Part shown: positions 6,668-38,300 of the stretch, piece after piece
Numbering within the stretch: position 1 is the stretch's first letter
Layout of the letters: each line of letters starts with the position of its first letter
From: a virus
Virus record (IMG/VR): IMGVR_UViG_3300042563_000822
Span: 1-43,816 of that record
Direction: 5' to 3' (one strand)
Length of the DNA: 43,816 bases
The notes under the pieces: generated by a model
Told to the model about the DNA's origin: nothing
Databases searched by the model: none
What the model saw: the letters and a program-made list of their open reading frames with translations, nothing else
Translations under genes and position numbers: made by a program

Positions 6668-7741
6668 TTACGAGAGGTCCAACTTACCAAAGGCAAGCGG
6701 ATTGTGAATAACGAGGCCAGCGACGGCTTCGATGAGACGAGCAGGGCCACCACCGTAGTCAGGGAGGTTGGTCACTTCGGCAACGTTGCCGCCGTAGCGA
6801 ACTTCCACCATGTCAAACGGGATGATGTAACCGACTGTGTGGTTCTTGAGGAACAGGGACGGGTGCAGACGCAGACCGCCAAAGTCGCCTTCAAACACGT
6901 CAACCGAGGATGTGTAGGTCGAAGCCGACGCATCTCTGTTGAAGTTTCTGACGGACTCCGTGGGGGAGAGGTCCTCACCGGCAATCTGCTTAGTCGTGTA
7001 GACGAGGTTCGTGAACGCTCTCTTCAGCAGGGGACCACCGAGGAGGTCGTAGGTCTTGAACTGACCAGTCTGCTTGTAGATAGAGGTCAGAACATTCTGC
7101 ACCTGGGTTTCGTTGAGGTCAGCGATAGCACCAGTCGAGATAGACGAGGAGGTAGCGTCACCAGAGTTATACGGGAGACAGAAGTCGTCCGGAACTAGGG
7201 TAGCAGCGTGGGTATCCTTGTCGGCAGCCTTAACAAGCCACTTGTCGAGACCACGGGTCTTATACGGAACGGAACCGTTGTCCGTCTGCGAGCCGTTAGC
7301 CGAGCAGAAGGTCTTTTCCATGTCACGCTTAAGAAGGGTGATAGCCTTAGCGACGTTGTTAGCGAGTTCGTCCTTGACACCAGCGATATTCGTCACCGAA
7401 GACTGGGTGAGTTTAGAAACTCGGGTCTGTCTGCGGAAGATTTGAATATGCGAAGCCAGTTCGTTACGATACTGCTTGGTCGAGCCACCAACGGTGTCTC
7501 TAACATAGTTTTCGTAGTCGCCAGAGGAGACATCCGTGCCGTCAATCGTGCCGTCTGTCTTCGGTTCAGGGAGGGAGTCCACCTGCCAGCGGAACAGCGT
7601 TTGCTGCGGCTGAGAACCCTTACGGGCCATAGAGGTGAACGGAGTGTCCTTGCGGTCAACAAGGGAGATGAGATTAGCAATCTCTTCACGGCGACCAAGT
7701 TTATTGGCCTGAGAAAGAGTGCGTTCGGTGAGCATAGCCAT
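6668..7741 (-). CDS. Major capsid protein, SU10/DUF5309-like
   Basis: 357 aa. The N-terminal pattern SLVDRKDTPFTSMARKG followed by FRWQVDSLP and RNELASHIQIFRRQTRVSK is characteristic of the SU10-type (DUF5309) major capsid family, an HK97-fold group common in podoviruses and environmental phages. The length is usual for the family. It follows the scaffold gene by 25 bp, as expected of a head gene. The codons look more GC-rich and regular than neighbours, consistent with strong expression. The ATG at 7741 lies behind a run of ACCTACCTACAT-like sequence with no SD; a second in-frame ATG two codons on is possible. Confidence 0.82.
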   Translation of the reverse strand: MAMLTERTLSQANKLGRREEIANLISLVDRKDTPFTSMARKGSQPQQTLFRWQVDSLPEPKTDGTIDGTDVSSGDYENYVRDTVGGSTKQYRNELASHIQIFRRQTRVSKLTQSSVTNIAGVKDELANNVAKAITLLKRDMEKTFCSANGSQTDNGSVPYKTRGLDKWLVKAADKDTHAATLVPDDFCLPYNSGDATSSSISTGAIADLNETQVQNVLTSIYKQTGQFKTYDLLGGPLLKRAFTNLVYTTKQIAGEDLSPTESVRNFNRDASASTYTSSVDVFEGDFGGLRLHPSLFLKNHTVGYIIPFDMVEVRYGGNVAEVTNLPDYGGGPARLIEAVAGLVIHNPLAFGKLDLS

Positions 7742-7766
7742 AGTAGGTATGTAGGTAGGGGGGGGG

Positions 7767-8771
7767 TTAGAGGTATTTTGACACCACGGACTTCAAGTCT
7801 TCACGGGTTCCAGTTCTTGCGAATCTGGACTCAGCACTTCTATTAGAGGTATCACTTCTGCTAGATTGTGTCTGCGTAGAGGTAGGCTTGACAGAAAGTT
7901 GCGGAGTCTGCTTTAAGGCAGTCCCCTTCTTCTGTATCTGACTGGTTCGGGCGGTAAAGCCCCTAACATAGTCACCGATAAACAATTCAAAATCCGGGAA
8001 ACGTCTAAACTGCGGGAATGTCTTCAGAACCTGCTGTGCAATCTTGAACTCGGGGGCTTCCTTGTTTTTAAGCCAAGGGTAGGCTTCCTGAGCGATAGGC
8101 TTCCATTGCTCTCTAGCCTTTACAAACTCCAATTGCTTGGGGAGGTGGACCTCCATTGCTTGCATAGCGTTGAGTTTCATGTTCCTAACCTGTTCGGAGT
8201 CAAAATAGGTTTCGCCCATTTGGAACCCTTCAGGGTTTGCTTCGCACTTATATCTGATTTGTCTCGCTTGTTCGTATTCGTTCTTAATTGCGTCCTGAGA
8301 GGAGAGGTCCGCAAAGGGGCTTTCAGCCGTAGGCTGCACCGCTTCGCTAGTCTTCTCAAATTCTTCAACCTTAGTCTTATACTGCTCGAGTTCCTGCTTC
8401 ATCGCTTCAACCTGCTCTTCAGCGGTCTTACGCAATGCCGTCAGTTTGTCGATACGTTTTTGAACACCGGTTTGTTCTTGTCCTTCGTCTTGCTTCTCTA
8501 CTTGTGAAAGAACATCATCGCCATCCTCTGCCGTGGGGGTAATTTCCGCTTCTTCAGTCAAACCGTCGCTTGACTCGTCTGCTTCTTCACCCTTGTCTTC
8601 CGTTTGGACTTCTCCCTCTTCTTGAACAGGTTCGGGATTACCTTCGTCTTGTTCGTCGGAGAACAGGATGCCTCGTAATTGGTTTACAAGTGTTTCTTCA
8701 GTTTGAACGCTTCCGATAGCGTTTTCCACGGGATTTTGTGCCTCTCCGTTATCGGCATTAGTTGTAGTCAT
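7767..8771 (-). CDS. Capsid scaffolding protein
   Basis: 334 aa with the usual scaffold profile. A very acidic low-complexity N-terminus (about residues 35-95, rich in EE, DE, QTED), a long coiled coil (about 105-145, KLTALRKTAEEQVEAMKQEL), and a basic Ser/Thr-rich C-terminus (about 275-334) that could dock on capsid protein. It lies between portal and major capsid genes, the canonical place. No protease domain is visible, so maturation may not involve a protease encoded here. The ATG at 8771 has no SD. Confidence 0.75.
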   Translation of the reverse strand: MTTTNADNGEAQNPVENAIGSVQTEETLVNQLRGILFSDEQDEGNPEPVQEEGEVQTEDKGEEADESSDGLTEEAEITPTAEDGDDVLSQVEKQDEGQEQTGVQKRIDKLTALRKTAEEQVEAMKQELEQYKTKVEEFEKTSEAVQPTAESPFADLSSQDAIKNEYEQARQIRYKCEANPEGFQMGETYFDSEQVRNMKLNAMQAMEVHLPKQLEFVKAREQWKPIAQEAYPWLKNKEAPEFKIAQQVLKTFPQFRRFPDFELFIGDYVRGFTARTSQIQKKGTALKQTPQLSVKPTSTQTQSSRSDTSNRSAESRFARTGTREDLKSVVSKYL

Positions 8772-9096: not shown

Positions 9097-11283
9097 TTAA
9101 AGTCCGACAGGGTTAATAGCCTGTTGCATCTGGATGGGTTCTGCAAGTTCTTGCTGCTCACCGGCTTGCGCCTGTTTAGCGAACTGATTACCCACAGGAG
9201 AAACGCCAGTTCTTCCAATTTGGGCGTTCTTTTGTTGGCTAATTGACATTTGCAGGTTTTTAGAGTAATTCTGCAAGAGGGCTTGGAATACAGGGTCGCC
9301 TTTAGACGCTTGCTGGGCCTTCGGGTTCTTGCCCATAATATCCTGCATGGCTTGGAGTTTAGACCCTGCTTGCGGGTCGTTTTCTGTATACTGGGCTTCC
9401 ATCCCGTTAAGCATCAACGCAAGGTCGCTCTGAACGTCCTTATACTGTCTCTGTGTTGCCGTCTGCTGGTCGATAAGGATATCCTTGGCTGTTTCGGGTG
9501 CAATGGCTACTGCCATCGCTCTGATAAGTTTACCTCTATCAATAAGACCACCGGTATCCATAGGAAGAACAAACTGCTGGAAAGTCTTGAGTTTTTCTAA
9601 GACATAATCCGTGTCGTGCTCTCTGATGTCAAACTTGATTGCAAAGTCGAACATCATATGGTTTTCCATCATTGTGGCACTAATAGGAACCCCTGTTACT
9701 CTTTCGATTTCCTCGGGAAGCATGTATTGCATCGCAAGAGAAAAAACCTGCTTGTAAACAGAAGACCAAGCAAGGAAGAAGTTGTTGACCAAGAACTGCT
9801 GGGTCAACTGTGTCTGGGTCGGAACAACGTTGGGGTGGTATAGACCAAACTGCTGGGCGACGTTCTGCTCAATTCTTTCCATCAAGGAGAACGCAGTAGC
9901 AGGAGTGCCACTCGGACCTTGAAGATACTGATACTCATCGGGTCTGTTGACGGGGAGAAGTTGACCCGGGCCAATTCTTGTTTGGCTGGCGAGTCGCTTC
10001 GTTACCATTAGCGGAGGCGATACCTCAATTGCGGTTCTATCACGGATAGCATCTTGTTGAGCCTTTAGTTCTTCTTGCTCGGTGTAGAGTATTTCGGGAA
10101 CACCTCTGGACTCAACAATAGAGCGTCTAAGTCTTTCACGTCTGAACTCGATAAACGGATACTCCCCGTGGGCGTAGTCAAGGATTTCATGTTTACCATA
10201 CAGGTGTTCCTCGACTGTAGGAACAAATACCGTATAGTAGATTGCTTGGTTTCCGTTGTCGTCCAATTGCTTGGCGTAGGAATACACGACTTCTATGAGG
10301 TTATTGGCCTTTTCTATAGCATTCGGAACTGTGTTGACCAGAGGAATAATTTGAGAATCCTGAAGATAGCCGGTCTTTCCAGCAGTCTGAACGGCTTGGT
10401 CCATAAACTCTTCGTTCCAGCCTTCGGACTTGCCGATGCTTCTGAACTGAACTTCGGACATGAATGTTCTTTTGAAAATAACTCTAGCGTCCTGTATATC
10501 AACAGTCTCGGGAGGGAAAGCAATTTCGTCAAACGGTTTTAGAGTGGCAACTACTGGAAGGTTTCTAGAGATGTAAGGTTGTTCATATTCAGACCAGCCT
10601 TGCTTGTTGAGGTTTTTGCATACCACTTTCGCTTCCTCTTTAGAAATAGATAGTGCTTGTCCCATGACCATTATTCCTAGGTCGGAGTTAGGGTCAGACT
10701 TAATCATGTCCGTAGCCTGAGCCATAAGACCACCACCAGATTGGGCTGCGGCAGCAAGGTCTTCCATCTTGATAATTTCCTTTCGCTTAGAAATCTTTCT
10801 ATCCCAGCCAACGTGAACGCAAGACCAACCAAATTGGTATGTGTATTGCACCCAGAGTTCAGCCTCCCTAGTAAGTTCGTTTCTAATCTTATTCTCGACA
10901 ATCCATTGCATTAATGTTTGGGCTGCAGCCGCAACCTCTCCATCATTAACCTCCATTCCACTAACTTTGATATTGGCACGACTCCAGGAAGTCATCAGAA
11001 GAACTACCAGTTGGTTGATGGTGTTATCAATCAGTCTGTTCCTAACATCCGAAGCACCTTCAAACGGAAACGGTTCAAAACCTAAAGAGTCTTCGTGTTT
11101 TCTGCCGTCATCAGACTGACCTTCCCAGCGACACATACGCTGGTCGTCCGATGTGGTAAGCCTAGACATATTGCCACCATAGAAAAGGCAACGGTGCAGT
11201 TCGTCGTTGAGATACTGCACGTCTGGTTCGTCGCTCGCTTTAGCGATTTTATCCATCCCGTTGAGCCAAAATTGTTCAGACAT
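9097..11283 (-). CDS. Portal protein (podovirus type)
   Basis: 728 aa, the size of podovirus head-tail connectors. It encodes a dodecameric ring through which DNA enters and leaves. Seen are FPFEGASDVRNRLIDNTINQL near residue 75, a wing/stem region with many aromatic residues, HGEYPFIEFRRERL near 380, an ILYTEQEELKAQQDAIRDR helix near 410 typical of portal stem regions, and a long Gln-rich C-terminal tail (about 610-728) that may form a barrel or contact internal proteins. It follows terminase large subunit directly, the standard order. The start has no SD. Confidence 0.85.
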   Translation of the reverse strand: MSEQFWLNGMDKIAKASDEPDVQYLNDELHRCLFYGGNMSRLTTSDDQRMCRWEGQSDDGRKHEDSLGFEPFPFEGASDVRNRLIDNTINQLVVLLMTSWSRANIKVSGMEVNDGEVAAAAQTLMQWIVENKIRNELTREAELWVQYTYQFGWSCVHVGWDRKISKRKEIIKMEDLAAAAQSGGGLMAQATDMIKSDPNSDLGIMVMGQALSISKEEAKVVCKNLNKQGWSEYEQPYISRNLPVVATLKPFDEIAFPPETVDIQDARVIFKRTFMSEVQFRSIGKSEGWNEEFMDQAVQTAGKTGYLQDSQIIPLVNTVPNAIEKANNLIEVVYSYAKQLDDNGNQAIYYTVFVPTVEEHLYGKHEILDYAHGEYPFIEFRRERLRRSIVESRGVPEILYTEQEELKAQQDAIRDRTAIEVSPPLMVTKRLASQTRIGPGQLLPVNRPDEYQYLQGPSGTPATAFSLMERIEQNVAQQFGLYHPNVVPTQTQLTQQFLVNNFFLAWSSVYKQVFSLAMQYMLPEEIERVTGVPISATMMENHMMFDFAIKFDIREHDTDYVLEKLKTFQQFVLPMDTGGLIDRGKLIRAMAVAIAPETAKDILIDQQTATQRQYKDVQSDLALMLNGMEAQYTENDPQAGSKLQAMQDIMGKNPKAQQASKGDPVFQALLQNYSKNLQMSISQQKNAQIGRTGVSPVGNQFAKQAQAGEQQELAEPIQMQQAINPVGL

Positions 11284-11313
11284 AGTAATTGTTTATCTTA
11301 AGTTGTGAAAAAA

Positions 11314-12948
11314 TCAATAAGAACCTCCGCCAATAGGCTTGTAACTGTCGGAGTCCTCGTAGACCGGGTTCATTACAACGATGTAACGCAAAGCGTCAAT
11401 CGGGTCTTTAGAAGCACCCTTATCCCCATCGCTACCAGTCCACTCTCTCATGGAGTAAATCAAGTTCTGGCACTTGTCAGAGATAAACAGTTTTGGCTTA
11501 TTGACATATGAAATAGGTTCGCTTTGGTCAAAGTAGAGCCAGTCGTTAATCATTGACACTCCTTGTTCAATTTTGATACCTGCGGCTGGCTTAAAGTAAA
11601 TACCATTGTCACCCTCGTTGAGTAATTCAATAAGACTAACGCCTCCATCCTTGCCTATGGTCTGGGTAGCACCGGCACGTGGGTCAATGTATCGTTCGGA
11701 AATTAATTCGGGTTCTTGTCCTTCGTCTCCTGCTTCAGCGTTGAGAATAAGGTTACGATACTCGTCAAGACCCCTACCAGCAGAAGAACGCTGTGCTGGA
11801 CCTTCTCTACCATCTTGCTTAGAGTCTGGAAGTGCCCATTCTCCGTAGGTTTCGTCCGGGAACTCCCTGTAAATGTAGAAGTCGCCTTCTTTCGTCGCCC
11901 TACACCAGAGCATGAACCAGTTTCTCGCACCCGCTGGGTCGCACGACATGTAGTTTGTCCCTTCTTTGGGGATTTTGTCCGCCGGGATGATGTGCGTTTC
12001 CCCGAACATCGGGAATTGCGAGCCAACGAGTGCTTGCGCCCACCCGTATGCACGGATTTTCTTTTCATAATCGGTTTTGTTATCGAGTTGCTTCACCATC
12101 TGGTCAAATGGCGAATATACGTTAAACTTCGAATGAAACCATACAATACCCGAGGTCTTGCTGCGACCTTCAGCAAGATAAGGCATGTGACCCTTCGGGC
12201 AACCAGCCACATGAATGAGATTTTGCGGAAGAATGTCCGCTTTCTTTGTTTGCGTGAACTTACAGCCGCTAACATACTCCTTTACAACTTGAGAAAAGCC
12301 TCCAATCGGAGTAAAAGTGACAATAAGCCTGCCACGGCGAGTAAGAATACGATATCTAAGGGTTTGAATCCAATCCAGAGGCACAAGTTCGTCACACCAG
12401 ATAAAATCTGGCTCGCCACCTTCAATAACAACCTTATCTTGTGCATAATTCATGAAGATACATTGGCTTCCGTTGGGAAAAACAAATGAATTGTGGGAAA
12501 AGCCGTTCTTCAGAGAATATTGGATGTTGGTGATGCGTCCCTTTTTCATCGTCTTGTATTCAGACGGGATATATTTCCAGATTACGTTCTGTTGCATCTG
12601 GACGGACGATTGAGAAGTGGTGTGAATGCACCAAACAATAGCATTCGGCTTGTTGCAGAGAGTGAAAATAGCCCTTTTAGCCGCATATTCTGTTTTGCCG
12701 GCACGATTGCCACCTAAAATAAGCAATTCTTCTTTGTTTTTTAGCATTTCATCGGCATCTTTCCAATGGAATGGTTCATAGCCGTGGCGGTAAGGGTCTT
12801 CTTTTTCAGCAGTAATCTTATCTTCTCGCAGTTGTATGAGTTCAGCAACCTTATCAGCACCATCTCGCTCAATCATTACCCTTAGTTGCTCCTCCGTTGG
12901 CTTAATCAACAGCGGATGCTCTGTCATTTTGTCTAATATTTTGCTCAT
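11314..12948 (-). CDS. terL: Terminase large subunit
   Basis: 544 aa packaging motor. The ATPase domain shows Walker A GGNRAGKT (residues 79-86), Walker B FIWCDE (182-187) and a coupling segment near VTFTPIGG (210-217). The nuclease domain has the RNase H-like acidic residues in MSCDPAG (D337), YIDPRAG (about 430) and KDPIDALRY (about 520). It cuts concatemers and drives DNA into the prohead. ATGA overlap with the upstream ART-like gene. No small subunit is recognised next to it; candidates are the small genes at 14529 and 14795. Confidence 0.93.
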   Translation of the reverse strand: MSKILDKMTEHPLLIKPTEEQLRVMIERDGADKVAELIQLREDKITAEKEDPYRHGYEPFHWKDADEMLKNKEELLILGGNRAGKTEYAAKRAIFTLCNKPNAIVWCIHTTSQSSVQMQQNVIWKYIPSEYKTMKKGRITNIQYSLKNGFSHNSFVFPNGSQCIFMNYAQDKVVIEGGEPDFIWCDELVPLDWIQTLRYRILTRRGRLIVTFTPIGGFSQVVKEYVSGCKFTQTKKADILPQNLIHVAGCPKGHMPYLAEGRSKTSGIVWFHSKFNVYSPFDQMVKQLDNKTDYEKKIRAYGWAQALVGSQFPMFGETHIIPADKIPKEGTNYMSCDPAGARNWFMLWCRATKEGDFYIYREFPDETYGEWALPDSKQDGREGPAQRSSAGRGLDEYRNLILNAEAGDEGQEPELISERYIDPRAGATQTIGKDGGVSLIELLNEGDNGIYFKPAAGIKIEQGVSMINDWLYFDQSEPISYVNKPKLFISDKCQNLIYSMREWTGSDGDKGASKDPIDALRYIVVMNPVYEDSDSYKPIGGGSY

Positions 12949-16663: not shown

Positions 16664-16740
16664 GTGCCTGTTTTGATCGAGCGCCAGGTGCTTCCTGCTG
16701 CCCGGCGGTTCCCACCATCCCACCCTACTTGATTTCTACT

Positions 16741-16900
16741 AGTTATAGTGTTATAGCATTACGACTATTAATCGAGTTATAGTATTACGAGAGTTCGAGT
16801 AGTTATAGTGTTATAGTATTACGAGTAGTTATAGTGTTATAGTATTACGTTATTCCCACTAGTTATAGTGTTATAGCGTTACTACTGTTAGAGCATTACG
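16741..16900. repeat. AT-rich tandem repeat array
   Basis: Four near-identical 23-bp units start at 16741, 16801, 16827 and 16861, each beginning AGTTATAGTGTTATAG and ending (C/T)(A/G)TTAC plus G or T. Two shorter degenerate copies lie at 16775-16789 and 16886-16900. Each unit contains an internal TTATAG-TG-TTATAG doublet. The two middle units are 26 bp apart. No gene is present; the array looks like a multi-site protein-binding region or an AT-rich unwinding element. From 16664 to 16740 and 16901 to 17127 nothing else was recognised. Confidence 0.85.
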
Positions 16901-17127
16901 TCATTCCGGCGATTGTTCTTGACGTGTTATTACTTGTCCCCCCTAATAACCCCCAGTCCTTCAAATTACCCTGTTATAGCCTTATTAGTGTTAGTTGTTT
17001 GACTATTAGTGAGTCTAGTCTAGTCTTTCCACCTGTAATAGTAGGGGTTGGGATAACACCTGGCGGTGGGCTGTGGGAACTGCAGATTTTGATAGTTACT
17101 AGAAGTCAAGTGGTCAAATGAGGGCAC

Positions 17128-17162: not shown

Positions 17163-17291
17163 GAATTACTGGATTAATACCAGAAGTTGAAATTCTCGAT
17201 TTGCTTAGTCCACCAATAAACCTGTTTGTTGAACAGGTTGTATTCTAATACGTGATGGTCGAGTTGAACTCGATAGTCAATAGGACTATTG
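17163..17291 (-). ncRNA. Structured 3' region: series of four hairpins
   Basis: Between the 133-aa gene and the terminator the sequence folds as a chain of stems. AGAATT/AATTCT enclosing CTGG/CCAG (17163-17196), AACCTGTT/AACAGGTT (17219-17239), TCGAGT/ACTCGA with a TGA loop (17259-17273), and CAATAG/CTATTG with a GA turn (17278-17291, which includes the stop codon of the gene). Four stems in 130 nt is more than expected by chance. It could be a stability element or a small RNA released by processing. Confidence 0.45.
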
Positions 17292-17687
17292 TGCTGCATT
17301 GAATGGGTCAATTTTGGCTTTCTTGAGTTTCAAGTAACGCTGTTTTCCGTAGGCCAGCAAGCGTTCTTTGTTCCGGAAGTAATACTCCTTACTGTAGGCT
17401 TTGGTGGAACGCTTGAATTTATTGATTTTAGGTTCTTTGCCAATATACGCTTTTATAGTAGCGTCTGATTTAGGGCTTTCGTGAAATGCTTTGATTCGTG
17501 CTTCCTTGGCTTTCTTGGCTTCCTGCTGTTTTAACCATTCCTCGGTCGAAATCATTTTGTGCATCACGACCTTTTTGACATGCACCTGAATCTTGGGAGT
17601 ATTTCGTTTCTTTGAATTACTCAAAGCCAGGTTTGACATGGCTTTAATCAATTCTGTTGGCACTTGAATGTGCTTGGGAGTGGACAT
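17286..17687 (-). CDS. Hypothetical basic 133-aa protein
   Basis: Lys/Arg-rich. The N-terminal part contains KKRNTPKIQVHVKKVVMHK and the middle a helical EEWLKQQEAKKAKEARIKAF. The C-terminal YSKEYYFRNKERLLAYGKQR resembles the tyrosine/basic helix found next to HNH and other phage nucleic-acid binding domains, but no HNH residues follow. It is 60 bp downstream of the amidoligase with a strong hairpin between, so it may be read through from it. It could be a substrate or accessory factor of the amidoligase system, which is speculation from position. Confidence 0.55.
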   Translation of the reverse strand: MSTPKHIQVPTELIKAMSNLALSNSKKRNTPKIQVHVKKVVMHKMISTEEWLKQQEAKKAKEARIKAFHESPKSDATIKAYIGKEPKINKFKRSTKAYSKEYYFRNKERLLAYGKQRYLKLKKAKIDPFNAAQ

Positions 17688-17747: not shown

Positions 17748-19247
17748 TTACTCGACTCCACCCTCCAGTTGATTCAGAGCAATCGCATAACTGTCGAAGT
17801 TAGGCAACGCTTGAATTCCATTGAGGGTATAAGTCGACTGGAACTTGAGAATACGCTTAAACACGTAATGCTTCAAGTCTACCGAAGCATCCGATTGCAT
17901 GAAATCCTCAAGGGTAGCAACGCTATTGTAAGGAGAAGCCAGGTATTGCATGAAGCGGCACCAATACTTCAACTTGTAGTAATTCAACGTAGGCATGCCC
18001 AAGCGGATTTCGATCGTTTGATGTTCGCTGTAGCATTGAGTATTTACAGCAGTATAACGATTACCTTGATGCTCTCGACCAATGCCACAGTAGTGATTAT
18101 GGGAACGGTTGTAAGACACGGCTCGATGTGCCCAAGCATTAATAGCATCACGCACTTTAGTAGCAGTTCGCATAGCCGACTGTTGCGAGCGATGACGCAT
18201 ATCTAGATGCACATGATTGCCACAAGTATTATTAATACCAGCACCATTGGCAACCATCTTTTTCAACACAGCCTCCATGTTCGTCCAATCACTCTTGGAC
18301 GAGCCGTTGATGAACCACGTCAACTCTTGGAAATGAGCCAATTGTTCATCGCTACCATTAGGACGAATCGAGCCGTCACCCTTAAAGTAGAGCCAAGGGT
18401 AAACAGGGAATTGACTTTCTTCCCAATTAGTAATGCTACTACCGGTATCAGCAATAAACTCCAACTCGATACCTAGGCATTCACCATTAGGTCGAAGTCG
18501 ATTAGCCATAGACAACTGAGTTGAGTTGAGACTGTTGACCCAGCGATGCGGACGAACACTTGCAATATTAGAAATAGTGCGAGAGAAGCGTTCCTGCAAA
18601 GTTGCGGGCTGTGCATTTTCACGAGCATTGGTTTTCACCATTTCACGGCGACGATGGCAACGATTAAACCATCGGCCAACAGTAACACAATCGTTATACT
18701 TATCCACGATACGCTTGTAAAAAACGGCATCGTTCTTATCTACCTTTACACCAATATCTACTTCACTACGACCCTCAGTATCGTTCCAATCAGGGACTTT
18801 GCCTTCAATTAGAACATTAATAATACTATGGCGGTCATAAGTAGCAGTATTCACTACCCACTTGTGAAACCGGCCGATGAAGGAAAGCAGGGAAGTGTCG
18901 GACTGGTCGCCCAACTTGATATCTGCTAACGATAGTGCGGTCTGAACACGCATATTAAGACCATTAATATCAATCTCCAACTTGTAGTGCGGGTCGTAAT
19001 TCTGGTGTCCACGGATAATAGTGGCTAGCAGTTTCGGATTGTTTCGAGCCTTCAGAGAAAGCGAGTTCCAAGCGAGAATGGGGTCTGACTTGTAAACACC
19101 GTTTTCATCTTCCAGTCGGATTGCTTTGGTTTTGTGAACTAGCAGACCATAAGCCTCCAACTGTTTCTGCCGGAGGATGGGCTGCTTGGAAAGGATGAGA
19201 ACATCCTTTTCCGGGGTTTGAGGGTTAACTGAACTATCGGGGGCCAT
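17748..19247 (-). CDS. Amidoligase-family (glutamine synthetase-like COOH-NH2 ligase) enzyme
   Basis: 499 aa. The C-terminal half carries the order of motifs expected of the Amidoligase_2 family: GIELEF (259-264, metal-binding acidic pair), KGDGSI (289-294), QELT (307-310), GNHVHLDMR (343-351) and TIEIRLG (411-417), followed by a helix with YYKLKYWCRFM. Such enzymes use ATP to join a carboxylate to an amine. The N-terminal 240 residues are unassigned and may choose the substrate. A class II amidotransferase lies immediately upstream and could supply ammonia or remodel the glutamine. The ATG at 19247 sits behind an A/C-rich leader whose hairpin is shared with that of the amidotransferase. Confidence 0.78.
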   Translation of the reverse strand: MAPDSSVNPQTPEKDVLILSKQPILRQKQLEAYGLLVHKTKAIRLEDENGVYKSDPILAWNSLSLKARNNPKLLATIIRGHQNYDPHYKLEIDINGLNMRVQTALSLADIKLGDQSDTSLLSFIGRFHKWVVNTATYDRHSIINVLIEGKVPDWNDTEGRSEVDIGVKVDKNDAVFYKRIVDKYNDCVTVGRWFNRCHRRREMVKTNARENAQPATLQERFSRTISNIASVRPHRWVNSLNSTQLSMANRLRPNGECLGIELEFIADTGSSITNWEESQFPVYPWLYFKGDGSIRPNGSDEQLAHFQELTWFINGSSKSDWTNMEAVLKKMVANGAGINNTCGNHVHLDMRHRSQQSAMRTATKVRDAINAWAHRAVSYNRSHNHYCGIGREHQGNRYTAVNTQCYSEHQTIEIRLGMPTLNYYKLKYWCRFMQYLASPYNSVATLEDFMQSDASVDLKHYVFKRILKFQSTYTLNGIQALPNFDSYAIALNQLEGGVE

Positions 19248-19310
19248 GTTTTTTTGGTTTTTGGGTTTTACTCCTTTTCGCTGGGTTCTACGAAGTGTAG
19301 AGTTATCAGG
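19248..19310 (-). promoter_or_regulatory. Amidoligase leader with conserved hairpin
   Basis: On the minus strand a 5-bp hairpin TCTAC-ACTTC-GTAGA (19287-19301) is followed by ACCC, a CGAAAAGGA segment, AAAACCCAAAAA and the start codon. The GATase leader at 20514-20575 has the same layout, TCAAC-ACTTT-GTTGA. The third pair is T-A here and A-T there, so pairing is kept while the base changes. CGAAAAGGAG lies 24 nt upstream of the ATG, too far to be a normal SD. Confidence 0.68.
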
Positions 19311-19329
19311 ATTAGGAGGAAAGTTTTAC

Positions 19330-19349
19330 ATCCATATTTCTATGGATGC
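19330..19349 (-). terminator. GAAA-tetraloop hairpin downstream of the GATase gene
   Basis: Minus strand: CATCCATA-GAAA-TATGGATG, followed by TAAAACTTTCC. Eight base pairs and a GNRA loop, 73 nt past the GATase stop; the T tract is weak, so termination is probable but not certain. Confidence 0.55.
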
Positions 19350-19421
19350 CACAAAACGTCTTTTAGTTCTGTTTTTGAACTAGTGGTAAGACTGAATTAG
19401 TGGATTTCCGTCGATCAACTA

Positions 19422-20513
19422 TTAGTAGCCTATGTCGGAATCCTTCCAGGGCTTGATTTGCTTGCGTCCGTTCTTTTTCGAGCGTTCAGAGGATTCCTTG
19501 CGATAGTTGTCTAACTCCTTTTGCTCGCCTTCGGTTAGAACATCTTCCACAGTAGAATCAGGAACGCTATTGCTAAAAGAACTTTTAGGAATACTAGGAT
19601 ATGGACTGGTATAAGTAGAACGATTATTCCGGGCATTCCAATCACCAGAACCAAAACCAGCAACACCAGCACTACCAAGACTCCGATAAATGCCAGCGGT
19701 GCTAGAATACGACATTTTATTGTCAAACTTGGGAAACTCGATTGACTGGACTTCCCCATTTAGTTGAAATACATGCTTAGTGTAATCAGCAAGCATCATA
19801 GGAGTCGACACTTTAGGTTCCTTGATGGAATTGAAGTCGCACAACATTTTAGTCAATTCGTTGCAATGCGAGGAGTCCGTGCAAATCACGTAACTATCGA
19901 GGTCAACGATATAGGACATATACAAGGGAGCCTTGTTATCACGCAACACGAACATTTGACCTAATTGATCGAATCCAATAACTGCTGCGTAACCGGAAAT
20001 ACCATCTTTAAACGATTGCTCTCCATTTAAGTGAAGGAAGCAATTCAAGAGATGCTCGGAGTCACAGGTCGTATGAAGCGGTAGTTTAACACCACTCCAT
20101 TCAACGATACCATTATGAGCAATCGTCCACTTGCCGTGCTCGTTGAAGCCGGTGAAAGGATGAGTATTCTCAATTGACTTGCCACAGGTAGCGGTGCGAC
20201 CATGAGCAATAAGGGAACCGACGATTTTGCCTTTTGCAGGCTTTTCACCATTCGAGTCGAAGTCGATTCCTTCGAGTAGTTTGGTTCGGATAGAACCTTT
20301 GATTAGGTCAAAAGACTCTTTTAGAGTCCCCATACCAGCAACCGAGTCCGCCGAAAGATAGCGTTCGGTGAACTGACCATTTTGGTGTTTGATAGAATAG
20401 CCGAAACCATCCTTTTGGGAGGCTCCTAGCAGTTCTGCTGACCGCTTGACTAGGGCAGAAGCCTGTTTGCTACTTTTAGTAGAAACACGACTAATGGCGA
20501 TTAACTTGCACAT
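19422..20513 (-). CDS. Class II glutamine amidotransferase (Ntn-type)
   Basis: 363 aa. The start was set at the ATG directly before Cys, because class II amidotransferases use an N-terminal Cys nucleophile exposed by Met removal (MCKLIAISR). Further family marks are AHGRTAT (103-109), NTHPF (116-120), AHNGIV (132-137), CDSEHLL (150-156) and GYAAVIGF (174-181). It hydrolyses glutamine and passes ammonia to a partner. No synthetase domain is fused, and the Ser-rich C-terminus (about 265-363) is unassigned. The amidoligase gene just downstream is the obvious partner. An in-frame upstream start at 20561 is rejected because it would bury the nucleophile. Confidence 0.87.
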   Translation of the reverse strand: MCKLIAISRVSTKSSKQASALVKRSAELLGASQKDGFGYSIKHQNGQFTERYLSADSVAGMGTLKESFDLIKGSIRTKLLEGIDFDSNGEKPAKGKIVGSLIAHGRTATCGKSIENTHPFTGFNEHGKWTIAHNGIVEWSGVKLPLHTTCDSEHLLNCFLHLNGEQSFKDGISGYAAVIGFDQLGQMFVLRDNKAPLYMSYIVDLDSYVICTDSSHCNELTKMLCDFNSIKEPKVSTPMMLADYTKHVFQLNGEVQSIEFPKFDNKMSYSSTAGIYRSLGSAGVAGFGSGDWNARNNRSTYTSPYPSIPKSSFSNSVPDSTVEDVLTEGEQKELDNYRKESSERSKKNGRKQIKPWKDSDIGY

Positions 20514-20575
20514 GTTGTTTTGTTGTTTTTTGGGTTTTCGTCCTTTCGTCGGGTTCAACAAAGTGTTGAGTTGCC
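20514..20575 (-). promoter_or_regulatory. GATase leader with conserved hairpin and CAA-rich start region
   Basis: Minus strand: TCAAC-ACTTT-GTTGA hairpin (20555-20569), then ACCC, CGAAAGGA and AAAACCCAAAAAAC, ending in ACAACAAAACAAC before the ATG. It aligns with the amidoligase leader nearly base for base from AACTC to AAAACCC. No SD. Confidence 0.68.
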
Positions 20576-20634: not shown

Positions 20635-20919
20635 TTAGCCGTTCGAGGACTTCTTGCTGTTGTAGGAGGTCAGGGACTTGGTGATTTGCTTGACGGACTT
20701 GAGGAGTTTGAAATACTTGGACTTCCAGGACTTCGCTTCCTTCTCCAATTCCTTCTTTTCCGAGCAGAACTTGTGGAACTGCTCCATCTGGGACTTCTTC
20801 AAGTCGTAGTTTTCGATGTTCTTGAAGAACAACCGGATTTCGGGGTTCGTGGAAACCAACGACTTGAGGTTTTCCTTGTGGAAGTCTTTTTCAGACTTTT
20901 GCTTGAACACTTGGCACAT
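20635..20919 (-). CDS. Small charged helical protein (94 aa)
   Basis: MCQVFKQKSEKDFHKENLKS and onward. Lys/Glu-rich, predicted long helices (KKELEKEAKSWKSKYFKLL), with a Ser/Lys/Asn tail. It begins with Met-Cys like the GATase but has none of the Ntn motifs. The start follows GAAACAACAAAAAAC, an SD-less leader like that of the GATase. It could be a partner or substrate of the amidoligase/GATase pair, an idea based only on adjacency and leader style. Confidence 0.6.
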   Translation of the reverse strand: MCQVFKQKSEKDFHKENLKSLVSTNPEIRLFFKNIENYDLKKSQMEQFHKFCSEKKELEKEAKSWKSKYFKLLKSVKQITKSLTSYNSKKSSNG

Positions 20920-21537: not shown

Positions 21538-21609
21538 TGGGAGCAATGGGATTCGAACCCATAGCCTACGACTTAAAAGGTCGCTACTCTACCATTGAGT
21601 TATACTCCC
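21538..21609 (-). tRNA. tRNA-Lys(TTT)
   Basis: Full cloverleaf. Acceptor GGGAGTA/TGCTCCC, D stem ACTC/GAGT, anticodon loop CTTTTAA, T arm ATGGG-TTCGAAT-CCCAT, discriminator A. CCA is not encoded. Confidence 0.93.
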
Positions 21610-21616
21610 TAAAGGG

Positions 21617-21687
21617 TGGAGCGTAGGAGAGTCGAACTCCTATTATCCCGATGCAAACGGGATTTCCTGCCATTGAAAGAACGCCCC
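21617..21687 (-). tRNA. tRNA-Ala(TGC)
   Basis: Acceptor GGGGCGT/ACGCTCC (one G-T pair), anticodon stem TCCCG/CGGGA with loop TTTGCAT, T arm AGGAG-TTCGACT-CTCCT, discriminator A. Two unusual points are C at position 9 and a weak D stem. It lacks the GGGGCTA-type start usual for tRNA-Ala, but has G3-T70, the alanine identity pair. Confidence 0.82.
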
Positions 21688-21694
21688 TAAATGG

Positions 21695-21766
21695 AGGCCC
21701 GAACAGGACTTGAACCTGCAACATCCTCATTACAAATGAGGTGTTCTACCATTGAACTATCGGGCC
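21695..21766 (-). tRNA. tRNA-Thr(TGT)
   Basis: Acceptor GGCCCGA/TCGGGCC perfect, D stem GTTC/GAAC, anticodon stem CCTCA/TGAGG with loop TTTGTAA, T arm GCAGG-TTCAAGT-CCTGT, discriminator T. Confidence 0.92.
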
Positions 21767-21768
21767 GG

Positions 21769-21841
21769 TAGGCGTGAGGGGATTCGAACCCCCGACTTAA
21801 GCCTTATAAAGACTCCACTCTAACCGCTGAGTTACACGCCT
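21769..21841 (-). tRNA. tRNA-Ile(TAT)
   Basis: Acceptor AGGCGTG/CACGCCT perfect, D stem ACTC/GAGT, anticodon loop TTTATAA (anticodon TAT, reads AUA), T arm GGGGG-TTCGAAT-CCCCT, discriminator A. A genuine UAU anticodon is uncommon in bacteria, which usually read AUA with a modified CAU tRNA. Confidence 0.88.
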
Positions 21842-21855
21842 GTTGAATGTAAAAG

Positions 21856-21926
21856 AACCCGCACTAGGAGTCGAACCTAGACTTGAAGGACCAAAACCTT
21901 TCGTGCTACCATTACACTATGCGGAT
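21856..21926 (-). tRNA. tRNA-Gln(TTG)
   Basis: Acceptor ATCCGCA/TGCGGGT (one T-G pair), D stem GTGT/GCAC, anticodon stem AAAGG/CCTTC (one A-C mismatch) with loop TTTTGGT, T arm CTAGG-TTCGACT-CCTAG, discriminator T. Its first ten bases are also the last codons and stop of the 74-aa gene upstream (stop TAG at 21917-21919). Confidence 0.9.
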
Positions 21927-28154: not shown

Positions 28155-28168
28155 CAATCAATGATTTT

Positions 28169-28240
28169 GGTCCCGTAGTTCAACGGATAGAACACCCGCC
28201 TTCTAAGCGGGTTATCTTGGTTCGATTCCAAGCGGGACTA
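28169..28240 (+). tRNA. tRNA-Arg(TCT)
   Basis: Acceptor GGTCCCG/CGGGACT (first pair G-T), D stem GTTC/GAAC, anticodon stem CCCGC/GCGGG with loop CTTCTAA, T arm CTTGG-TTCGATT-CCAAG, discriminator A. Lies alone in the rightward block between ERF and a zinc-ribbon gene. CCA is not encoded. Confidence 0.93.
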
Positions 28241-28259
28241 ATTTCTACCAACAAGTAAC

Positions 28260-32033: not shown

Positions 32034-32336
32034 TTATTTAGTTTTTTTGATTTTAAGTCTGATGAAGTCAAATAGTTCGGGAGCAAAACTACCAGACACA
32101 GAGAAAATGATGCTCTTATACAGAGGCTCAATGTCGGCAAAGTATAAGGCAAAGTATACCATTACGCCAACAATAACACCAGCAATAATCTTTCTGAACC
32201 AAATCCAGAACTTATAATCTTCGTTAGTAAGTATAAGCCTAGCCAACGCACCCAGACCACCAAGGATGCCAACCACCCAGCCACCACGCTTAAACTCATC
32301 AATAATAACTGTAATTGACTGGTCATCTGTGTTCAT
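32034..32336 (-). CDS. Holin-like membrane protein (100 aa)
   Basis: Three hydrophobic stretches (about 19-36, 46-66, and a weaker one at 72-88), a short charged N-terminus and a basic C-terminus (IRLKIKKTK). Size, topology and position directly before the endolysin fit a holin. It overlaps the giant gene's stop by ATGA. No exact holin family can be named. Confidence 0.68.
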   Translation of the reverse strand: MNTDDQSITVIIDEFKRGGWVVGILGGLGALARLILTNEDYKFWIWFRKIIAGVIVGVMVYFALYFADIEPLYKSIIFSVSGSFAPELFDFIRLKIKKTK

Positions 32337-35300
32337 CGTGGTGCGGGTTTGGTGTATCTAGAATCCGGGCCAACCATGGTGGCTCTGGAGGGCGTTACAG
32401 GTCCTTTAGGTGTGCCTCTAAGTGCTTCGGGATTAGGCTCTGTTGCTTTACCCTGAAGGACGAACTGCTTAAGCCATCTTCCTTCTGTTCTCTTATGAAC
32501 CTCATCAGCCAGTTCTTCCATTGTCTTTGCTCGCATAAGGATTTGACCCCCCGGAGAATATAGAATGAAGTTTGCATCCTTTACGTCGGCTCTATCAGCA
32601 CCTTGAACGAGAACTTTCTTGCCTGTGATTTGAATGCCAACTCTTTTCCCAATGTCCTTATACATCAGTTGTTGCATTATGTAGCCACCATTGTTGATAT
32701 ACCAAATAGACTCACCGGCAACACCAGCCTCTCTCATTGAGTTATTGACAAATGCCATCTTGTCGGCAACCGCTTGACCTCTCTGGGCATCAAAGGCCGC
32801 AGAGGACATGCCAGTCGCTTGAGCAATCTTCGCAAACTCAGCCTCACGCTTCTTGAGTTCCTTGATATATTTCATTATGTTGGCAATCTTTGTATCATCA
32901 ACGGCAAAATCTGTTTTCAGTTCAGCCTGATTCTGGTCCCAAGCAATAGAATCACGGGTATAGTCGTCCATTTGCTTTTTAAACTTTTCAGCCGCAGTTT
33001 TATCTTTTTCTGAAATTCCAGTCGGTTTAGCAGCCGTGGGTTGCTTAGGCTTAGGGAGTTCCCATCCAATCATTTCTCCAGCACGAAGGTTATATAGTTC
33101 TTGTTCGGATTTATTGATGGCATCAACATCTTGCTTTGCGGACTCGTATCCTCTTTGGGCCATCTTTTTGACCTCCTCGGCAGACCAACCTTCTTGCCAC
33201 TTATCAAACCATTCAACGACGGCTTTATGGCTGGTTCCGACTACATCATCTCCTAGTTCTTGTCTCATGATGTTTGTAATCTCATTCACAGTCTTCCAAC
33301 CTAAGTCAAGAGCCAGCCTTCTTCTTATGTCATAGTAGACCGGATTTTTAGCAGCCAGCAGTTGCTGGGATGTTGCCCCAGTATCATCAATAACCTTAGT
33401 CCATGTAGCCAAATTGCCTCCGCTTTCCTTGCCTAATGATTTTTCGTAGGCTTCGGTAAGTTTGACTTGAACAATGTTATTGTCCTCAACCCACGTTATT
33501 GCTTCCGTGATATCCGTAATGTTTGGCGTTTTCTTATCTCTACCAATGCCAGCCTTGAGTTGCTCGGCAAGGATAAGCCCCGTATTTATGTCAATCAAGT
33601 CAAAGCCCATATAGCCTCTTTTGGGGCTTCTTTCGATGCGATAGCGTCCGGATTCGTGAACAAACGTATCTCTAATGTTGCCAGCAAAATTTACACCTAC
33701 TGGTCTAAATCCAGCCGCACCTAGTGCCTGTTCGACTGCATTGTTATTCTCGGGCGGCAGTTTGGAGTTTCTGGCGTGAGTTTCAGCGTCAATAATTGCC
33801 GACTGCTTGTCACGATAACCCCTGCCGACCAACTTGCCATTAGGGTCAATCATGAACAGTTCCCTAGTAGGAATGTCGTTAATGTCGAAGTTCTTTGGGT
33901 TTTCAAGCGTGAACATCGAGTAGCCAGAGCGATGCGTAAGACCTTCAACTAATTGAAGACCGGCCATATTGTATCCCTTTCTTTTTGCTTCTAACTCTGG
34001 AGCACCAAGCGGAACCCAGTTTGTCGAGGAATAGTTAGCGTTGCCCCAGCCCTCCGTAAACTGATTCCATTTGACGAATTTATTCTTTCCGTCCTCACCT
34101 TGATGCGGAATGATTTCCCCAAAGCGGTCAATACGATACATCGAAATAGGATGCTGTGCATCACGCATGGGGTTTCTTCCAATCGTATTGGGGTTTTGCC
34201 CGTAAAGAATAGCCAGTCTTTCCTCCCTAGCACTTACGCTTTCGACAGACCTTGCACCTTCGTCTTCATTTTCTGGGTCAAACTTTTCACGAAGTTCATC
34301 AAGTGCGGCTTGTTTCTGTGCCGACAGTTTGCCTTTCTTTGCAATAAACTCTTGCTCTAGTCCGTTAAGTTCTACATATTGTGTTTGTTCAAAGCCCATT
34401 ATTCTATTAACTATATTAGCCATTTTTTTAGCGTTGAACGGGTTTCCTTGAGCCATCTTTAGCAGAACTTCCCAGGAATGGTCGGGAGGTGCTTCAGAAA
34501 GTTCACCACCTTTAACTCTATCAACCGAACCGCCTGCTTGATAGTTCGAAAGAACCAAATCACAGGCTTCATTTAAGTTAGCACGTGTCTTAAAAAGGCC
34601 TTGAATTAATTTTGCAGAAATTGGCTGGCTTCCATCAACATCGAAAAAGTTGCCGTTCCAAGCATTTAACTTTGATTGGTTCGCTCTTGCAGGAGACCAC
34701 ATGTGAATATACATTTCAGGCAATCTAGGTTCTTCACCTTCCTCTGCTTCTGTCTTTTTTTTGCCCTTTACGTCAAGGCTTGAATCCCTAATTTCGACTC
34801 TAAGAGGAACAAGTATTCTAAGTCTAGGGTCCTCTCCGTATTGGTATTCTTTTTTGGTAGAGCCAATTTCAGTTCTGTAGGTAACAGGAGCGTATTCTGC
34901 AAGGAACACCTGAGTCCATCCCGGAGCACCACCCTTTGCCGTAGGGGTTGCTTTAGGGTCCTTCCAGTTACCATCCGCAATCGCATTAAGAAGTGTCACG
35001 ATGTTTTTCATTACAATCTCATTGGCACCAGAGTCCTTCCCGTAGTTTTCCTGAATATGTTGAATTATGCGTTTTGTTTGTTGAGCATTAGGAGCACCGA
35101 CAAGGACTGTCTTTCCGTCAAGGGTTTTCTTGACTTTAAGACCAGACCATTCGGCACCATCTCCGGGAAGGGGGGCAATGACTCTTTGAACAATACTTCC
35201 TATCGGTGCCCATTCAGCCTGCATCAATTTGTCAAGAGACTTTTTAAACATTAACGTATTCGGGTTAATGAAATTCTCTCTATTTGAGGCTAATGCCCAT

Positions 35301-38300
35301 TGCCATCTTCTTTTCTTTGAGGCTTCACTATCATCCTTTTGCTCTTTTACGATTGTATCTAAATCCCAAAGGGCATCAGTATCAGTTTTAGTCCCTCTAT
35401 TTCTTGTATGTGCAAGCATCTGGCTAGACCACTCCCATTCGTGTTTGCCAATAGGAATAATCTCATTGGTAATTGGGTGTCTAAATGTGCCGTATTTATA
35501 GAACTGATTAGGGTCTTTGCTTTGATTGCCAGAAAGCACAAAACCCATGTCCGTAAGTTTGTCCTGAGTCATCTCTTTCCAGAACTGTTCCATCATTCCA
35601 TTTCTACCAAATGTAGCCAAGAACATCGAGGCATCTACAATTCTTTCTTTAAGATTTGGCTTGGCATTGGGACTCTTTCCGTTCCAGTCAATGTCAGCGG
35701 TATTTATTGAATTGCCGTCATTAACCATGTCTTCGATTGTTAGAGAACCAAACACAAGTTTGTTCCAGAATTTAACGCGAGACCATCCGGCAGCAAAGCG
35801 ACCTTCAGGCGCTCCGCTTTCAAACCCTTGTTTTACTCTTTCAGTAACAGTTCCTCCTTCGAAAGAACCCTGAGGAGAGGAACCCATTGCGTCTGTTCTT
35901 CCAAAGTGCGGGTTGGCAGACTCAAGTCTTGCTTGGTAAAGTTTGCCGGCTAACTCCAAAAATACTTGTTGCATGAGTCTTGTGTCGTTCGGGTTTCTGG
36001 CTTGATTTTTCTTGCCCATTTCCCAAGTGGCTCGGAACATTACAGCCTCAGACTCGCTTAAGGTCTCGGCGTGTGCTTTGACGAACATATCCATCAACTG
36101 AAGAGAGCCTTCGACTGTTTTTGCAATCTTAGGAGCATGAGTCATGACTGCCTTTCCGTTAGCATCAACACCCCATTCGCCCAAAATCATGTTTTTAAGT
36201 GCAGCACGGGAGTCAGCCATGTTCTTGTGGAAAAACAATGCGTGTGCAACTTCTTCACGGCCCGTAGATGTGCTGAATTTAGACTCGTCAAGATATATGG
36301 TAGTTTCGCCATTTCTATCCCAAACAGTAATGCCATTCTTCATGGACGTAAAGACAGCATCATCAAGGACGGAAATATTCACCTGCCCGTCTCTGAATTC
36401 TGTAATAGGATTTCTAGAAGCAATACCTACCTTTTCAACTTCCAACTTAGACAACTGGCTATTGATATCCCTAATTTCATTATGAGACTCAAGTTGCATG
36501 TTCTTAATTCTAACGAACTCTTGCTGGAATGTTGCAATCTTCTTAACTACATCAGGCGACATTTTGCTTGTGTCGATGTTTCTTAGTTGAGGAGCCATCT
36601 CCCCAATCGGAGTAGTAGGTTGTGGGACTCCATACTCATTTTCAATGGTAGCCGTCTCCTTGATAGGAGGAGTGCTAAACCCATTGGGGAACATGTCTTC
36701 AATATTAAGACCAGCCTCTGCTGCAATAACCTTCGCACCAGCCTCTAGGTTTGCAAGTTCGGTAAGCGTCCCATCCTGTATTGTCTTTATTTTGGTGGTA
36801 AGGATGTCTGTTTCCTTGGCAATGGTTCCAAGTCTAACTCTGCCGGCATTGGAAAGCATTATTCCCTCAATCATACGCTGGGCATATCCTTCCGCTTCTT
36901 CACCCTTTAAGCCCATTTTGGTTGCTGTATCAAGATACTGCTTTTTAACTGCATCAGCAAACTCGGGGTCCTGATGCTGGACACTTTCCATCAATCCAAC
37001 AAGACCGTTTCTTACGCCACCAGAAGTAAGTTCAAGTTTGGCGTTTGTTCTGAAAACTTGTGCAAGCGTAAACATTTGCTTGGCAAAGTGCGTCTCGCCA
37101 GCGTTAGCACCACTCTTTTTTGCAATCAAATCAGCGTCATCCCTGGCCTGCATCATCACCTTAATAATTTTCATTCTCTGAACATTGCCTATTGCGTCAT
37201 GACCAAGGGCATCCATGTATCCTCTGATTTGGCCCATATCATGATTTGTTCTTTCACGCAAATTTACGTCACGACTGAAGTGTGAAGTCCATCCAGAAGT
37301 AATAGCATTTGTCGCAGAACCAAAACCTGCAAAAGCAGTTCCACTACCAACACCAGCAAAATTGTCAGTAAGTCCAAGTAGAAGTTCGTTAGAGGCAACA
37401 GACACCATGCCGTCTTTATACAGTCTAGCAGAGGCAGCAAGAACCCCATTTGCACCTATTGAATGAAGTCTTTTAACGTGGTCAGACTTTGCCTCCAGAT
37501 AATCCAGTCTCAAGTCAATCTTTTTGATTTCCTTTTCGACATTGACCGACTGAGATACCAAATCAGGTTCTTCTCTTACTACTGTTTCTCCAAGTTCCTT
37601 GAGTTGTTTGCTAATATACGGCCACTCTCCTCTGGTCAATGACGCTCTTTTGATAAGCAACTGTCTTCTTTCTGCTTGAATATTGCCTCTGACACCAAGC
37701 ATTGCGGAATCAAAGTCATTCCCTTTTACGGATGCTAGTTTTGCGTATTCTTGAATAATTTCAAGTTGTCTTCCAATGCCACCAATAGTTCTGGCAAGCG
37801 GGATAACAGAATTTAACATAGCCCATCTAAATATTCCGGGCGAAGTTGATTGCAATGCGGTTGCCGTTACTCCAGCAGAGCCAGCAACCTTAAAACCAGC
37901 GGTAATACCACTTCTGGGACTTCCGTATGTCTTTTCAAGTGCATCAAGCCACTCGGAACCAGTTCCTACACCTTTCAATAATTCATTAACACCTTTAGCC
38001 AGCGGATTGTCATAGATAAAATTAAACTGGACAGGGAGTTGCGAACCACCAACATATCCTGCAATATCCTTGGCATCTATTCTTCTCCAAGCACGACCAA
38101 CCTCACGTGTGAGGGAGTTCATCTCGTTGGGGGTAATTACCGGCTTTCCGTTGGCAAGAACGGGAACCTTTCCACGCATCAATCTGTCGTAAATAATAGA
38201 GTCGGGCAATTTGGAAAAGTCAGTTTCTGGATGGATTTCTTGAAGTCTCTGCCTGGCCTTGGCAATCATATCCATCGACTCTTTACTATATATGACCTTT

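Follow-up and report, generated by a model that had tools for sequence, protein, structure and literature searches.

A putative two-enzyme amide-bond cassette, an amidoligase beside a stand-alone class II glutamine amidotransferase, in a tailed-phage sequence

Neighbouring genes for an amidoligase of the Amidoligase_2 family (PF12224) and a class II glutamine amidotransferase (GATase, PF13522) have been described in phages of several groups. They are adjacent in the Pseudomonas phage LUZ24, as gp18 (amidoligase) and gp19 (class II GATase), and about 1 kb apart in phiEco32, and the passages of published genome descriptions that mention them report the pair in LUZ24-like, phiEco32-like, PA11-like, RIO-1-like and OM43 phages (PMC3890496, PMC3517423, PMC10580990, PMC5498523, PMC6209634), these descriptions being of the LUZ24-like UFV-P2 (PMC3890496), tf (PMC3517423), OM43 phages (PMC10580990), Pseudoalteromonas phages (PMC5498523) and TC6 (PMC6209634). 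A description of jumbo phages (PMC7824862) was consulted as well, and one of the phage Giles (PMC5705681) had no bearing on the pair. The role proposed in such passages is peptidoglycan modification or superinfection exclusion (PMC10580990, PMC5498523 and, for a LUZ24-like therapy phage, PMC11945000), and several of them credit the proposal of cell-wall modification and phage exclusion to Iyer et al. 2009 among others. Here we analyse a pair of this kind in the IMG/VR record IMGVR_UViG_3300042563_000822 (43,816 bases; the whole stretch is called the window, and G000 among the compared records). A first reading of the DNA letters alone (the original prediction) had proposed a two-enzyme amide-bond cassette at this place, with two flanking Lys-rich proteins of 94 and 133 aa as candidate substrates or partners. 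Our data uphold the cassette, with intact active-site-type residues and a pairing that is kept among relatives, but not the role of the flanking proteins; the novelty of the pair had also been overestimated, since it was already described in the phage groups named above. The two open reading frames (ORFs) are present as predicted, both on the minus strand, and are composed as follows.

19422-20513, minus strand: GATase gene, ATG at 20513 and stop at 19422; 363 aa, N-terminus MCKL
19425-19538, minus strand: GATase C-terminal helix and basic tail of the (K/R)N..(K/N)PWK type; a disordered linker precedes them
17748-19247, minus strand: amidoligase gene, predicted Amidoligase_2 (PF12224) ATP-dependent carboxylate-amine ligase, 499 aa
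18498-19247, minus strand: ligase N-terminal helical extension, residues 1-250, fast-evolving
17817-18494, minus strand: ligase catalytic domain, residues 252-477, predicted glutamine synthetase/GCS fold with invariant residues

Judged from sequence and model, the product of 19422-20513 is a stand-alone class II (Ntn) glutamine amidotransferase. It scores above the Pfam cut-offs for GATase_6 (38.3 bits, cut-off 27) and GATase_4 (24.7, cut-off 23), and a GATase_6 match is found in 27/27 aligned members of the family. The MCKL start and the absence of a synthetase or SIS domain agree with the predicted GATase that has an N-terminal Cys and the family motifs but no synthetase. The PHROGs name of the protein, 'L-glutamine-D-fructose-6-phosphate aminotransferase' (PHROG 4736, 4.4e-8), is misleading because the SIS domain is absent, and a GlmS identity was rejected on this ground and on the NCBIfam glmS score (16.9 bits against a cut-off of 418.05). 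The structural model, with a predicted local distance difference test score (pLDDT) of 81.8, resembles PurF (Z 22.4), GlmS (Z 20.5) and EgtC (Z 18.7), the PurF and GlmS matches spanning about 205-220 residues, and the sequence matches the GlmS glutaminase domain at 1.7e-13. Five residues (C2, R106, N134, G135 and D151) are invariant among the 27 aligned GATases, at identities as low as 15%, and in a profile alignment the Arg, Asn-Gly and Asp coincide with their counterparts in the GlmS glutaminase domain. We take these residues to have catalytic or glutamine-pocket roles, Cys2 presumably being the nucleophile after removal of the Met. Residues 270-325 are predicted to be disordered, and past residue 277 the model has one helix only. 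The PWK-type tail pattern, which was written after the alignment had been inspected, is present in 12/12 GATases of the window's lineage and in 0/15 other GATases.

The C-terminal half of the neighbouring protein is, on the same kinds of evidence, an Amidoligase_2 enzyme with a glutamine-synthetase/GCS fold. PF12224 is matched at 30.9 bits (cut-off 22), as it is by 28/28 aligned ligases, and PHROGs names the protein 'amidoligase enzyme' (4.6e-10). In the model (pLDDT 88.2) the catalytic domain aligns with YbdK over 197 residues (within 253-477; Z 11.8, root-mean-square deviation 4.0). Z values of about 10 were obtained over residues 252-477 for GmaS, glutamate-cysteine ligase and numerous glutamine synthetases, and the best named matches among viral models are other phage amidoligases. 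E261, E263, D291, E308, H345, H347, E413 and R415 are invariant among the 28 aligned ligases; we take these acidic, His and Arg residues to be of active-site type. Structure prediction of both enzymes, which had been suggested as a check, thus gave a class II GATase fold and a glutamine-synthetase/GCS fold.

The N-terminal part of the ligase, of about 250 aa, is predicted in the window protein mostly as confident helices. It had been left unassigned beside the recognised ligase motifs, and it has no recurrent Pfam match across the 28 members; when the complete model was compared with known structures, coverage by at least a fifth of the matches was confined to residues 252-477. The catalytic motif is preceded by 248-284 residues in the 12 lineage members (258 aa before GxExE in the window), but N-terminal length alone is no lineage marker, because 218-322 residues are also found before the motif outside the lineage, in L064, L058, L047, L046 and L053. 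A bacterial origin of the ligase gained no support from a pattern scan of genome contigs, which reaches only sequences having both patterns and gave 36 pattern matches, none of them related to the ligase.

A related ligase was found in 31 distinct viral contigs, of which 28 were reached via the ligase (26 with a GATase, 2 cut) and 3 added via the GATase, the latter search having returned 14 contigs (14/14 with a ligase), of which 11 were common to both. The GATase gene adjoins the ligase gene in 29/31, in line with the co-occurrence that had been put forward for checking, and the remaining two contigs, L035 and L052, end inside the ligase gene. The GATase of 25 pairings was recognised by the lineage GATase profile; those of L049, L053 and L057 are ORFs starting with MC immediately behind the ligase, which match GATase_6, and that of L056 was recognised by GATase_6 (43.3 bits) directly behind the ligase. 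The alignments (28 ligases, 27 GATases) omit the cut L035 and L052 as well as two contigs similar to others in the set, L063 (like L064) and L045 (like L058), and L056 was also left out of the GATase alignment. Loss of one partner was seen in 0/29 contigs readable on both sides, and substitution of catalytic residues in none of the 27 GATases and 28 ligases. The gene order varies: in the window and the contigs closest to it the GATase precedes the ligase, in L008, L009, L065 and the distant contigs it follows, and adjacency that is kept while gene order differs favours a shared function. In L054, Amidoligase_2-like genes flank the GATase gene on both sides (7527-8732 and 10776-11513).

Both genes are under purifying selection. 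In the three close pairs for which omega was computed (L001/L002, L006/L010 and L061/L062, in this order) the values were 0.119, 0.113 and 0.089 for the GATase, 0.115, 0.267 and 0.045 for the ligase core and 0.186, 0.414 and 0.419 for the ligase N-terminal part. Identity to the window proteins within the 12-member lineage is 56-83% for the GATase core, 40-74% for the ligase core and 17-35% for the ligase N-terminal part. The omega and identity values together indicate that the enzymes are maintained and that the N-terminal domain of the ligase is the fastest-changing part, which is the behaviour we would expect of a domain facing a target. The N-terminal extension and the GATase tail could be one inherited state, so that their co-occurrence is not independent evidence of mutual binding.

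Profiles built from this set match LUZ24 gp18 (4.4e-10) and gp19 (5.8e-23) and genes 93/94 of the Arthrobacter phage Wheelbite (3.5e-41 and 1.2e-28), and by this homology the pair belongs to the known phage amidoligase-GATase kind. The LUZ24 cassette differs in having also a PF14395 COOH-NH2 ligase (gp16), GGCT (gp22) and a RimK-annotated gene, and in gp18 (391 aa) the core lies close to the N-terminus, in contrast to the long N-terminal part of the window ligase. No match to PF14395 or to GGCT/AIG2 was found in the window (0 each) with models that do detect LUZ24 gp16 and gp22. The RimK, R2K_2 and R2K_3 models found nothing in the window, but as no Pfam model detects LUZ24's own enzyme, gp21, it is less certain that an ATP-grasp enzyme is missing. 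Among the 32 records compared, GGCT occurs in one (L057), PF14395 in one (L047), R2K_3 in none and R2K_2, below its cut-off, in two (L047 and L055), so that in this sample the pair usually comes without GGCT and PF14395. Wheelbite is similar in this respect, since within the 5.8 kb inspected the annotation names no amide enzymes besides genes 93-94, but its ligase (337 aa) and GATase (295 aa) stand in reversed gene order and the GATase has no PWK tail. The OM43 phages MEP401 and MEP402 and their metagenomic relatives share with the window PF12224, PF13522 and metallophosphoesterase genes (PMC10580990). Outside phages, amidation of a carboxylate by two proteins is described for MurT-GatD, which amidates the D-Glu of peptidoglycan; the likeness is one of analogy only. 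MurT belongs to the Mur ligases and GatD to the class I-type GATases, with folds unrelated to those of the present pair.

The reading that we favour, with roughly even confidence, is that the pair forms a two-part, glutamine-dependent and ATP-driven amide ligase acting on the envelope during infection, with the N-terminal domain of the ligase as selector and the GATase tail as tether. Glutamine would be hydrolysed by the GATase via its N-terminal Cys with release of ammonia, the fold and residues having been found as described above. In the glutamine-synthetase-type site of the Amidoligase_2 subunit ATP would serve to phosphorylate a carboxylate, to which the subunit would then attach the ammonia released by the GATase, or an amine, as an amide. 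The substrate would most likely be a carboxylate of the host cell envelope, for instance in the peptidoglycan stem peptide, as suggested by the proposal for LUZ24 and phiEco32, and competing phages or lytic enzymes may act less well on an envelope modified in this way. In this lineage the target is probably selected by the helical N-terminal part of the ligase, and the two subunits are probably held together by the conserved tail of the GATase. Judged from family, fold and residues, the class of chemistry is well supported, and gene adjacency supports direct coupling of the two enzymes, while the target is a guess taken over by analogy from the literature on homologous genes.

Several observations weigh against this reading. 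As PF14395 and GGCT are both absent, the full pathway proposed for LUZ24-type phages cannot run here. Foldseek alone gave no match of the ligase to the PDB at E ≤ 0.001 (best 1.6e-3, a glutamine synthetase), and by sequence the ligase profile matches no solved structure of such an enzyme. Porphyromonas phage019b carries Amidoligase_2 in its structural gene block, with GATase_6 absent from the whole record, and the portions of the open-access literature searched contained no experimental proof for any homologous pair. Finally, the GATase could be a gamma-glutamyl hydrolase, as EgtC fits the model at Z 18.7.

This last point leads to a relay resembling EgtA and EgtC, in which the ligase would join the gamma-carboxyl of glutamate to an amine and the Ntn hydrolase would later remove the gamma-glutamyl group, so that a gamma-glutamyl metabolite or tag is made or edited and no amidation with ammonia takes place. 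Such a relay would explain the fit of the GATase model to EgtC (Z 18.6-18.7 over 202 residues, with a weak EgtC sequence match), the likeness of the ligase fold to glutamate-cysteine ligase and YbdK, and the presence of GGCT with the pair in L057 and LUZ24. However, the GATase is nearer to the glutamine-hydrolysing PurF and GlmS, it lies far under the cut-off of the EgtC equivalog model (16.9 bits against 218.65), and GGCT is absent from the window; we regard the relay as unlikely. To a similar degree it is improbable that the pair modifies a phage or host protein, with side-chain carboxylates turned into amides or isopeptides and the N-terminal domain of the ligase as recogniser. The divergence of this domain is what a target-facing domain would show (identity 17-35% and omega 0.19-0.42, against 40-74% and 0.05-0.27 for the core), but a conserved small substrate protein beside the pair is absent and the scan of window proteins showed no other enzyme that would belong to a tagging pathway. 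We give very little credence to a third alternative, DNA base hypermodification, in which an amine would be joined by the ligase to a modified base or its precursor. What speaks for it is only that amide ligases were proposed in such pathways, and base hydroxylase, thymidylate-synthase-like and base-precursor enzymes are absent among 30 window proteins compared with PHROGs.

A two-hairpin RNA element was found between the two genes.

19310-19384, minus strand: two-hairpin RNA element between the GATase and ligase genes, single copy, with two covarying pairs

The same element lies between both genes in L001, L002, L006 and L010 (4/7 close loci), and four copies fold better than their shuffles, with z values of -3.6, -6.2, -4.9 and -4.9 and 0/200 shuffles as good. 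In the long hairpin two pairs change on both sides yet stay paired, and one pair is broken in one sequence; the covariation thus comprises two pairs among few distinct sequences. The first hairpin is invariant in sequence, which fits a protein-binding RNA site and a DNA operator equally well. No Rfam match was obtained at E up to 1, and a pattern scan of viral contigs for a wider family returned 22 stretches, of which 4 were the known relatives and 18 lacked the surrounding element. Near-identical A-rich leaders of 31 nt (87%) stand directly before both ATGs, at 19247-19277 for the ligase and 20516-20546 for the GATase.

The pair itself is of a known kind, and what is new lies in details: the ligase's N-terminal domain, the tail of the GATase and the RNA element. 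It is tempting to speculate that this lineage has made the known pair self-contained, regulated and target-selective, the N-terminus picking the target, the tail clipping on the glutaminase and the RNA setting the output of the ligase. The target would then perhaps be a phage- or host-specific protein or the envelope, and the RNA would perhaps sense a nitrogen metabolite. We consider this elaboration doubtful, and clearly less probable than the envelope-directed amide ligase favoured above. Amidoligase-GATase pairs recur across phages of very different kinds and stay together in our sample, and they therefore probably matter during infection. The present lineage is a compact two-gene version that offers residues, domains and one RNA element for testing, and a demonstrated target, if obtained, would make sense of two genes that are annotated side by side in many phages.

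The two flanking Lys-rich proteins, both on the minus strand, are as follows.

17286-17687, minus strand: p133, 133-aa Lys-rich protein behind the pair; lineage-restricted and fast-evolving
20635-20919, minus strand: p94, 94-aa Lys-rich protein before the pair; relatives not detected

Relatives of p133 are found in the window and 4/7 close loci and also beside the cut ligase of L035. Two pairs were compared for p133, with omega values of 0.693 and 1.283; these are too few data to be read, and either fast evolution or relaxed constraint may apply. No relative of p94 was detected in the seven close loci; compared pairwise with the ORF at the same place in L001 it gave an E value of 0.074. The suggestion that these proteins are general substrates or partners of the pair was rejected for this lack of conservation.

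The surroundings are those of a tailed phage, with genes for terminase, major head protein, head scaffolding, Erf and exonuclease VIII, and further genes encode a DnaC-like loader, an endolysin and a metallophosphoesterase. The closest isolate by terminase is 'Phage C75C1' (30% identity). A reading of the locus as a defence system was rejected, PADLOC giving no match at E up to 0.1. A 2668-aa protein (32333-40339, minus strand) has no Pfam match at E up to 0.01, and neither has its 900-aa neighbour (40386-43088). Imperfect repeats of about 26 bases occupy 16726-16905, in a gene-poor region. A cluster at 21538-21926 (minus strand), a short way upstream of the pair, comprises five tRNA genes, for Lys, Ala, Thr, Ile and Gln; a gene for tRNA-Arg lies on the opposite strand to this cluster, at 28168-28241 (plus strand).

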